DNA from: Fimbriimonadaceae bacterium
Lineage (GTDB): Bacteria > Armatimonadota > Fimbriimonadia > Fimbriimonadales > Fimbriimonadaceae
DNA length: 64,000 bases
Direction of reading: 5' to 3'
Assembly (NCBI GenBank): GCA_019454105.1
Contig: CP075364.1
Span: forward strand, 2,359,362-2,423,361
The first letter of the stretch is position 1. Each line of letters begins with the position of its first letter. Below, one piece after another: positions 4,062 through 6,627 of the stretch. The notes under the pieces were generated by a model that had not been told where the DNA came from, searched no databases, and saw only the letters and a list, made by a program, of their open reading frames with translations. The position numbers and the translations under genes were made by a program.

Positions 4062-4346
4062 GTGACGACGTCTCTTCTCATGTGCGCTGCCATGTGCACT
4101 GTCGGTTCCGATCTTAAGATCATCGAAGTCCGAGAGACCCGCGTCTTTGCCGGAAAGCTTGGTCAGCGTGTCACCCTGGCGGCGGAAGCAGAAGTCGATG
4201 GCAAGCCGGTTCACGTCCAATTCACAGGGGCCTATCACACGCGGGCGGCAGGAAGACGAATCGAACTCAAGGTGGGACAGACGATCCATGTCCACGGTGT
4301 CCCGGACAAACGTACGCTGAAGGTCAGTCTCGAAGCGATCCACTAG
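4062..4346 (+). CDS. Small unrecognised protein
   Basis: I choose a GTG start at 4062 because GGGAG lies five bases upstream (4052-4056). In-frame ATGs at 4080 and 4092 are alternatives. The roughly 94-residue product is rich in short beta-type segments (KIIEVRETRVFAGKLGQRV, KPVHVQFTGAYHTR). It has a short hydrophobic N-terminus that could be a weak export signal. I recognise no family. It overlaps the convergent beta-barrel gene by four bases. Confidence 0.5.
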   Translation: MTTSLLMCAAMCTVGSDLKIIEVRETRVFAGKLGQRVTLAAEAEVDGKPVHVQFTGAYHTRAAGRRIELKVGQTIHVHGVPDKRTLKVSLEAIH

Positions 4347-4978
4347 AAGCGGGCCGTGTAAGAGAGTCCGACTGAATACTGATAGCCGTCAGACTTCCTC
4401 ATCGGTGCCCCGCCGGCGACGGTCCATACAAGGCCCGTGATCGTTCCTACTTCACCGGACAGAGCCACCCATGCTGTGCTGCCAGGTCCGGACACGAAGT
4501 CGGCCATGAGCGTCAAGTCTTGCCCGATCGGGGCGTCGATCCCAACCATGAGCCGGTTGCGGTCGTTCTGGTACCAGCCTCCATGCAATCGGAAGGAGGC
4601 AAAATCGTGCCTGGCGACCAAGTACTTGTCTGCCCGACCCTTGTCGAGGTTCGTGAAACCGGCACTGACCGCAATCTTGCCGTCGTTGGGACGCTCGTAA
4701 AGCAGAACCTTGGCGTCCCATGTTGTCGTTCCTTCAAAGTCGTTGGCCAGGCCCAACTCGACCCGGTCAAAGAGGCCAAGGGTGAGCCCGTTCGAGTGAT
4801 AGACCCTTTTGTCGATGTTCCTCTCGTGGCCCGCCAACGCGTACTCGACCATCGCCTCACGGTGGCGAAGGATGTCAGCAATCGGCATGACGACGAGCAC
4901 AGTCGGAGTGGCGGAGAGAATGGATCCCATGCCGGTGGCCAAGGCCAGGATCGAGGCTCGAGTGGTATGGCCCTTCAT
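4343..4978 (-). CDS. Predicted outer-membrane beta-barrel protein
   Basis: The 211-residue product has an N-terminal signal-like segment (about residues 8-30). About eight or more alternating amphipathic strands follow, such as KIAVSAGFTNLDKG, RLMVGIDAPIGQDL and TLMADFVSGPGS. It ends in YSVGLSYTARF; an aromatic last residue is typical of outer-membrane barrels. No enzyme motif is seen. It is transcribed alone. Part of the mature N-terminus (HREAMVEYALAGHERN) is charged and may be periplasmic. Confidence 0.6.
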   Translation of the reverse strand: MKGHTTRASILALATGMGSILSATPTVLVVMPIADILRHREAMVEYALAGHERNIDKRVYHSNGLTLGLFDRVELGLANDFEGTTTWDAKVLLYERPNDGKIAVSAGFTNLDKGRADKYLVARHDFASFRLHGGWYQNDRNRLMVGIDAPIGQDLTLMADFVSGPGSTAWVALSGEVGTITGLVWTVAGGAPMRKSDGYQYSVGLSYTARF

Positions 4979-5050
4979 TTCTTTCCCAACTCCCTCGAAA
5001 GAATTGCCATTAGTTCAGTGATTGAAACCTAACGACAATTACCAGGAGGG

Positions 5051-5145
5051 TGGCGGGAGCGTGTAGGAATCGAACCCACCAGGCCCCTCTTGAGGGCCAC
5101 AACGGTTTTGAAGACCGCGGGACACACCAGCGCCCATTCGCTCCC
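5051..5145 (-). tRNA. selC: tRNA-Sec (anticodon UCA)
   Basis: On the minus strand this 95-nt sequence has a GGGAGCG/CGCTCCC acceptor stem. The anticodon arm is GCGGT-CTTCAAA-ACCGT, placing TCA in the loop. A long variable arm (GGCCCTC...GGGGCC), a TTCGATT T-loop, discriminator G and an encoded CCA complete it. The long extra arm and UCA anticodon identify selenocysteine tRNA, which decodes UGA at SECIS sites. The eighth acceptor pair appears as A-A rather than paired. No selA, selB or selD lies in the window. Confidence 0.9.
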
Positions 5146-5217
5146 AACCCAGTTCCTTGTACCCTAAGTCCCAGCCTAGAGAAACCGATGCCCCTCAGGC
5201 GGGATTCTACTGGTGAG

Positions 5218-5634
5218 ATGAACGTCAGCGTCGAATGGAAGGGCGGGATGGCCTTTCAAGCCGATCCTCCGAGCGGTTTTGGGTTCACCTTGGACTCTCA
5301 TCCCGACTATGGGGGTCAAGGGCTCGGGCCGACTCCTATGGAAACCCTTCTCGCTTCGATCGCCGCCTGTTCGGCGATGGACGTCGTTTCGATCCTAGAA
5401 AAGAAGCGACAAGAGGTCACCGCGTACCGGATCGAGGCCCATGCGGTGAGGCCGCCGGACGGTGAGTACCCGAGGGGGTTCATAGAGGTTGAGATCGTCC
5501 ACCATGTCTCTGGTGTGAATCTGGATCCGGCTGCGGTGGAGAGGGCCATAGAACTCAGCGAGACGAAGTACTGCTCGGTCTTGGCCACGCTCAAGGGTTC
5601 GCCCAAGATCACGAATCGTTTCGTCGTGGCCTAG
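5218..5634 (+). CDS. OsmC/Ohr-family protein
   Basis: OsmC-type proteins are cytoplasmic thiol peroxidases or related thiol-reactive proteins. This copy reads EWKGGMAFQ, GPTPMETLLASIAACSAMDV and later SETKYCSVL, so it has both conserved cysteines (AAC and YC). It most resembles the YhfA-like branch, where the PMExLLxSxxxCxxMDVVSIL block is strong. I use the ATG at 5218; an ATG at 5188 in frame is possible. Any extension further upstream would run into the tRNA-Sec gene. Confidence 0.9.
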   Translation: MNVSVEWKGGMAFQADPPSGFGFTLDSHPDYGGQGLGPTPMETLLASIAACSAMDVVSILEKKRQEVTAYRIEAHAVRPPDGEYPRGFIEVEIVHHVSGVNLDPAAVERAIELSETKYCSVLATLKGSPKITNRFVVA

Positions 5635-5649
5635 CTCAGCCAGGCCACG
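5625..5649. terminator. Hairpin between convergent genes
   Basis: Arms CGTGGCCT (5625-5632) and AGGCCACG (5642-5649) pair perfectly around a 9-nt loop. The hairpin lies between the ends of osmC and the polysaccharide export gene, and could end transcription from either side. There is no clear T tract, so it may be factor-dependent. Confidence 0.45.
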
Positions 5650-5652
5650 ACA

Positions 5653-6627
5653 CTAGCGACGGTTGAAGACTGTGATCCCGAAGCGGTCAAGAATGAAGAA
5701 CGCATTGGCGACCTCGCTCAAGAGGCCAAGGTTCGGATTGTTGTTCCTGGGCACGACGACCGTATCGCCAGGCTTCAGGAAGATGTTCTGGCTCGAATCG
5801 CCCTTCTTGACAAACTTGACGTAATCGGCTTGGATGCGGATGTACTCGTTCCGCACGCCTGGCTTCTTGCGGATGATCACGATCCGGCTCTGCCAAGCGG
5901 TGGGAAGTCCGCCGCGGGTTCGAGCCATCGCGTCGTTCAGGGTCATCTCCTCTTCATAGGGGATGATGACCGGCTCACGGACCTCGCCGATCACTCGGAC
6001 GTAGTTCTGATCGTCCACTTGCGGCACCAGGAGGATGTCTCCGTCCTTGATCTCATAGTTCTGGGACAGGTCGCCTCGCAGCAACATGGCCCGAAGGTCG
6101 ACAGGGACATACTCGCGCCAACCTTTCCTCTGGAACCTTGCCCGCTTGAGGTCGGCTGAGAACGGCAAACTGCCAGCCAGCGACAAGAGATTGATCAACT
6201 TGTCGCCGGGACGGACTTCAAAGGTGCCGGGCCGCTCGACAGAACCCAACACAGAAGCAAGGATCCTCCTCGGTCTCAAGAGCGTCACCGAGACCCGGGG
6301 CTTGATGATTCTTAACTGCCGGTCGTACTCGAACGACAGCGCCGCCTCGAGTTCCGTGGTCGTCTTGCCCTCGGCCTTGACCAAGCCAATGAACGGAGCG
6401 GTGATGAACCCGTCTTGGGTCACAGTCACCTGGGCCACGATCTGAGCTTCTTCCCAGACTCGAATGTCGAGGACGTCCTCGATCTGGATCCGGTAAGTGC
6501 CCCCGTCCGCCTGGGCCACGGCCAGATTGGCCATGAGGCTCAATAGCAGGGCCAGTACAAAACCGTAAAGCTTGCTACCCATATTCGCGTCCATGCGGCG
6601 GATTCCTTGAGAGTCCAGACGGATCAT
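5653..6627 (-). CDS. Polysaccharide export protein (Wza/SLBB family)
   Basis: After a signal peptide (hydrophobic stretch ending ANLAVAQA) comes a polysaccharide export domain: YRIQIEDVLDIRVWEE, TVTQDGFITAPFIGLVKAEG. SLBB-type repeats follow (ILASVLGSVERPGTFEVRPGDKL, YVRVIGEVREPVIIPYEEEM). It ends in a C-terminal segment with FLKPGDTVVVPR. Such proteins form or cap the outer-membrane channel for exopolysaccharide. The ATG at 6627 overlaps the rsmI stop (ATGA), but ATGs at 6594 and 6582 would give a more ordinary signal peptide. No other capsule gene is nearby, so this is an orphan copy. Confidence 0.85.
   Translation of the reverse strand: MIRLDSQGIRRMDANMGSKLYGFVLALLLSLMANLAVAQADGGTYRIQIEDVLDIRVWEEAQIVAQVTVTQDGFITAPFIGLVKAEGKTTTELEAALSFEYDRQLRIIKPRVSVTLLRPRRILASVLGSVERPGTFEVRPGDKLINLLSLAGSLPFSADLKRARFQRKGWREYVPVDLRAMLLRGDLSQNYEIKDGDILLVPQVDDQNYVRVIGEVREPVIIPYEEEMTLNDAMARTRGGLPTAWQSRIVIIRKKPGVRNEYIRIQADYVKFVKKGDSSQNIFLKPGDTVVVPRNNNPNLGLLSEVANAFFILDRFGITVFNRR

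Follow-up and report, generated by a model that had tools for sequence, protein, structure and literature searches.

A selenocysteine tRNA gene of a Fimbriimonadaceae genome and the decoding system around it, with SelD and a SelW-like protein as likely clients

The selenocysteine (Sec) decoding trait of bacteria, as presented in the available parts of PMC1794560 and PMC13188914, comprises four genes and UGA codons followed by a downstream hairpin in the message, and SelD can itself be a selenoprotein. The tRNA gene analysed here lies in a stretch of 64,000 nucleotides (the window, genome positions 2,359,362-2,423,361) of a Fimbriimonadaceae genome assembled as a single contig of 2,741,041 bases (99.26% complete). 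This genome resembles the described trait in all of these respects, with SelD a predicted selenoprotein, but differs in that its sel genes are unlinked and that neither a Sec-containing formate dehydrogenase (Sec-FdhA) nor a selenouridine synthase was found over the cut-offs. According to the available part of PMC1794560, FdhA or SelD occurs in every selenoproteome studied, a pattern which the window genome fits because of its SelD. Sec insertion genes in the absence of selenouridine synthase are described for Planctomycetes in the available part of PMC4807772. Sec use in Armatimonadota is not described in the accessible portions of PMC4807772 and PMC10290634, and no paper title on the subject was found in the open-access literature searched.

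The window feature is almost certainly selC, a working Sec tRNA gene that serves at least selD and a SelW-like protein of the Rdx family. The system is an ordinary, intact one of a kind already known; the novelty lies in where it is found, in the clients it serves and in the lack of a Sec-formate dehydrogenase. All the parts of Sec decoding, together with two likely clients, can be placed by inference in Armatimonadota, a little-studied group. Since the family includes close relatives with and without the system, it should be useful for asking why Sec persists where there is no Sec-formate dehydrogenase.

The tRNA-Sec gene and its surroundings

Two tRNA genes were detected by ARAGORN in the window, one of them tRNA-Sec (Table 1). 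The Rfam model RF01852 matched at 5055-5145 on the minus strand over its whole length (model positions 1-91 of 91), with 74.6 bits (gathering score 47) and an E value of 1.8e-13. Both results bear out the first-pass annotation of this DNA, which had placed a tRNA-Sec with a UCA anticodon and a long variable arm at this site and had given no strand. Read on the minus strand, the gene forms a cloverleaf in which the D stem has 6 bp and closes a 4-nt loop and the variable stem also has 6 bp; the 3' end, GCCA, is encoded. The predicted fold has an energy of -44.8 kcal/mol, and equally stable structures were obtained from 3 of 200 shuffles (z -2.64).

Table 1. Features at and beside the tRNA-Sec gene (window coordinates)
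Feature	Position	Strand	Basis
tRNA-Sec gene (selC) with encoded CCA end	5051-5145	-	ARAGORN, Rfam, fold, alignment
UCA anticodon (TCA in the gene), reads UGA	5109-5111	-	ARAGORN
Long variable arm, 6-bp stem and 5-nt loop in the window sequence	5082-5098	-	fold, alignment
G73 discriminator base	5054	-	fold; invariant in 13 aligned rows
Eighth acceptor position, 5' base A, mismatched with A at 5062	5138	-	alignment
Eighth acceptor position, 3' base A	5062	-	A in 13 aligned rows and 3 further family tRNAs
OsmC-like protein gene (Cys form), divergent neighbour of tRNA-Sec, not machinery	5218-5634	+	PF02566, 69.6 bits
211-aa protein, next downstream of tRNA-Sec, context	4343-4978	-	no Pfam family over its cut-off

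Thirteen of the 20 tRNA-Sec genes from the family and order (12 of them distinct) were aligned. Standard pairs made up 89.7% of the paired cells, and 9 of 30 pairs were changed on both sides; no shuffle out of 500 came up to either value, and 7 of 500 had at least as many further pair types. The variable stem, where register shifts occur, was paired in 72% of cells in this alignment.

The window tRNA agrees with RF01852 in its UCA anticodon, long variable arm, 6-bp D stem, 4-nt loop and G73, and also in its 8/5 length, having eight residues per acceptor strand and a 5-bp T stem. It departs from canonical 8/5 pairing, a common and not a defining trait, in that its eighth acceptor pair is a non-standard A.A. 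This pair was the only one never paired across the 13 aligned rows, and it was non-standard in all 16 tRNA-Sec genes examined of the 20 from the family and order, always with A as the 3' base. The mismatch was considered as a possible novelty and rejected, since the position also lacks a pair in 6 of 17 tRNAs from other Armatimonadota, and G.A stands there in five of the nine tRNA-Sec genes taken from other phyla, each of the five belonging to Bacillota; its presence in these groups marks it as a shared bacterial variant. A 7-bp acceptor stem has been described for bacterial tRNA-Sec in the available part of PMC5330540.

Window positions 4800-5400 showed no site resembling a promoter or a terminator. 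The divergent OsmC-like gene beside tRNA-Sec was considered as a selenoprotein gene and ruled out, since it has Cys and no internal UGA. It is followed by a polysaccharide export gene (window 5218-6627 for the two), an order also seen in the related loci L027, L028 and L032. Among 12 loci tested, a divergent OsmC gene lies about 80-115 bp from tRNA-Sec (measured between match ends) in these same three and about 0.9 kb away in L036, and none was found within 1.5 kb in the other eight. In the order member G191 (L122), unlike in the window genome, tRNA-Sec is found about 0.1 kb from a selD match.

Sec machinery and its likely clients in the window genome

Homologues of all the Sec genes sought were found in the window genome over their curated cut-offs: selA at genome position 1,408,055 (440 bits, cut-off 267.9), selB at 2,034,294 (323 bits, cut-off 242.25) and selD at 1,687,052 (340.6 bits, cut-off 125). 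They are unlinked to tRNA-Sec and to one another. The first-pass annotation had argued from the tRNA that a Sec system should exist, a proposal to be abandoned if selA and selB were absent from the genome; the presence of both, together with selD, upholds it. The gene set and the UGA codons described below were observed, and the steps that would connect them are modelled on the known bacterial pathway. By that analogy, seryl-tRNA synthetase would load serine onto the selC tRNA, SelA would turn the tRNA-bound serine into selenocysteine with selenophosphate supplied by SelD, and SelB would bring the Sec-tRNA to UGA codons with a hairpin after them in the mRNA; in the window genome the clients would number at least two, selD and a SelW-like redox protein of the Rdx family.

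The selD frame contains one TGA, at codon 12, within the peptide CAGUASKLGP, which fits the UxxK site of Sec-SelD as given in the available part of PMC13188914. Among the 35 family and order genomes, 20 have a selD gene that exceeds the cut-off; 19 of these carry TGA at this site and the remaining one, in G177, carries TGT. The 13 nearest named SelD records are 55-69% identical and carry the names Armatimonadetes, Chthonomonas, Fimbriimonas, Fimbriimonadales and Fimbriimonadaceae, and the window genome probably belongs among them. Two tandem hairpins follow the selD UGA, the first beginning 10 bases past its first base. They were aligned over 20 downstream regions, from 8 of the 19 TGA-containing selD genes and from all of the 13 named Armatimonadota loci except L051, which has Cys; L126 and L048 are near-identical. 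Compensatory changes were found in 4 of 13 pairs, and 13 cells were changed on both sides (shuffled mean 3.4, reached by none of 500 shuffles). Of the 500 shuffles, 18 had at least four pairs changed on both sides and 160 had at least as many further pair types. The two hairpins of the window genome had a z score of -3.06, and 1 of 200 shuffles was as stable. Several of the changes are silent in the protein, as where a Leu codon that goes from CTG to TTG pairs with a Gln codon that goes from CAG to CAA; an RNA element within a gene would be expected to behave in this way.

The second client is a gene of 96 codons on the minus strand at genome positions 1,409,964-1,410,254, found 0.6 kb from selA by a scan for in-frame UGA that took in 20 kb around selA. 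Its CxxU motif, CLAU, occupies codons 18-21, UGA being codon 21, and translation may really start at the Met of codon 11, where several relatives seem to begin. The protein matches PF10262 (59.1 bits, cut-off 22.6) and TIGR02174 (43.2 bits, cut-off 34.2), as well as six solved chains, two of which are named SelT/selW/selH or selenoprotein W-related. In its N-terminal CxxU, its length of about 86-96 aa and a profile match over most of that length it resembles the SelT/SelW/SelH (Rdx) family, but it scores 75.1 bits with the equivalog NF041051, short of the cut-off of 88. Between selA and the SelW-like gene sits a gene for a 196-aa HD-domain protein (PF13487, 108.6 bits; L164 11378-11968), convergent with the SelW-like gene and sharing 4 bases with its 3' end.

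SelW-like genes over the cut-off were found in 13 of the 35 genomes, each with exactly one internal TGA and all with CxxU. All 13 belong to the 20 genomes that have tRNA-Sec, selA and selD, and none of the 15 others has one, an association with a Fisher's exact value of 5.9e-5, uncorrected for relatedness. A hairpin follows the UGA at the same place in the 13 sequences, with a compensatory change in one of six consensus pairs; that of the window genome was no more stable than its shuffles (z -0.58, 53 of 200). The hairpin evidence is therefore weaker for the SelW-like gene than for selD.

The search for UGA genes with hairpins, which the first-pass annotation had proposed as a check, yielded selD and, with the weaker hairpin evidence, the SelW-like gene. 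Its warning that ordinary annotation may take in-frame UGA codons for stops is expected to apply to both, at codons 12 and 21 respectively; SelD would probably lose its catalytic N-terminus in this way, and the SelW-like protein most of its length.

These two clients are to be taken as a minimum, since the UGA scan covered 46.8% of the window genome (61 stretches plus the window) and was low in power. Ranked by coding score, selD came 690th and the SelW-like gene seventh; the latter was recognised after the scan had been filtered for neighbouring cysteines. A motif scan of all loci studied gave no further convincing UGA client. Formate dehydrogenase was considered as a client and rejected: the sole Molybdop_Fe4S4 match in the window genome is NuoG (523 bits, cut-off 470), and no FdhA exceeds its cut-off there, the TIGR01591 matches reaching at most 92.6 bits (cut-off 666.25) and having no stop. 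Peroxiredoxins and thioredoxins were also rejected, as the 11 AhpC-TSA and 10 thioredoxin matches of this genome (some of them shared) have no internal stop. Selenouridine synthase (YbbB/MnmH, TIGR03167) was over its cut-off in none of the 35 genomes; short weak matches were found in 22 of them and none in the window genome.

The failure of these candidates would suit a Sec system that serves only itself, with SelD, the maker of the selenium donor, as its sole client. For the window genome such a reading is very improbable, because a SelW-like gene with UGA is present in it and in 12 relatives, although it may still hold for some relatives that have no SelW-like gene. Hardly more credible is that the tRNA-Sec gene is a relic, left from decaying machinery in a genome where UGA is no longer read as Sec. 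Losses of this kind could be suspected from the 15 of 35 relatives in which the system is absent, and from G177, where tRNA-Sec and selA coexist with a Cys-containing SelD and where any SelW-like match stays below the cut-off. In the window genome, however, all four genes are present over their cut-offs, the stems of the tRNA have been kept by changes on both sides, and UGA is retained in selD and in the SelW-like gene with conserved protein sequence on either side of it.

Distribution and likely clients among relatives

Across the phylum, RF01852 matches over the Rfam score were obtained in 143 of 201 genomes, lower scores grading into other long-armed tRNAs; at 60 bits or more, tRNA-Sec was counted by hand in 100 of 201. 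At the same threshold it is present in 19 of the 34 genomes of the window's own family, and in 20 of 35 when the order member G191 is included. The same 20 genomes have selA and selD over the cut-offs, selB having been searched in the window genome. Sec use is therefore patchy even among close relatives, in agreement with the general remark of the first-pass annotation on bacteria.

The Sec system is probably old in the family and was lost in some lineages. Recent gain by horizontal transfer, in place of inheritance and loss, could explain why one of eight genomes of genus g2 has the set, but it appears unlikely: the set is present in all seven sampled genomes of genus g3, its genes are scattered and do not form a single transferable cluster, and the neighbourhood of the tRNA is common to different genera. 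The OsmC neighbour of tRNA-Sec shared with L027, L028 and L032, and found farther away in L036, also favours vertical descent.

Clients differ among the 20 genomes with the Sec set, seven of which have no SelW-like gene over the cut-off. FdhA was over its cut-off in 6 of the 35 genomes, and none of these had an internal stop among the matches listed; among the same matches, weaker ones were common and partly full-length, and the only two that contained stops were short ones from genomes that have no Sec system. No further client was found in the selA, selD and tRNA neighbourhoods of G177, G198, G143, G191 and G085 (G092 was left out). G177 (L134 / L270) is of special interest because its SelD has Cys (TGT) at codon 12; tRNA-Sec and selA are present, no client was recognised, no SelW-like gene was over the cut-off, and no FdhA was over the cut-off among the matches listed. 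It is conceivable, if rather doubtful, that Sec is kept in the absence of Sec-formate dehydrogenase and selenouridine by clients that vary by lineage (the SelW-like protein in 13 genomes and MsrA in one, while six, namely G085, G092, G143, G177, G191 and G198, have so far yielded none). G177 would then have an unrecognised selenoprotein, perhaps from a family still undescribed, or else the system would be kept in the other five only for SelD.

The MsrA client was found in G123 by comparing UGA peptides with relatives. A filtered version of this comparison (560 peptides with matches, 35 kept) omits it, showing that the filter misses real cases. The scanned part of the window genome yielded neither a GCFW nor a GUFW motif. 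The G123 gene (L275 1337-1339, minus strand, for the UGA) lies 6.7 kb from selA and matches TIGR00401 with 154 bits (cut-off 108.1). Its UGA is at the catalytic position of the GCFWG motif, in FGAGUFWG, as in the Sec-MsrA of Table 1 in the available part of PMC13188914, so that the protein is a predicted Sec-MsrA, and the hairpin after the UGA is strong (z -3.96).
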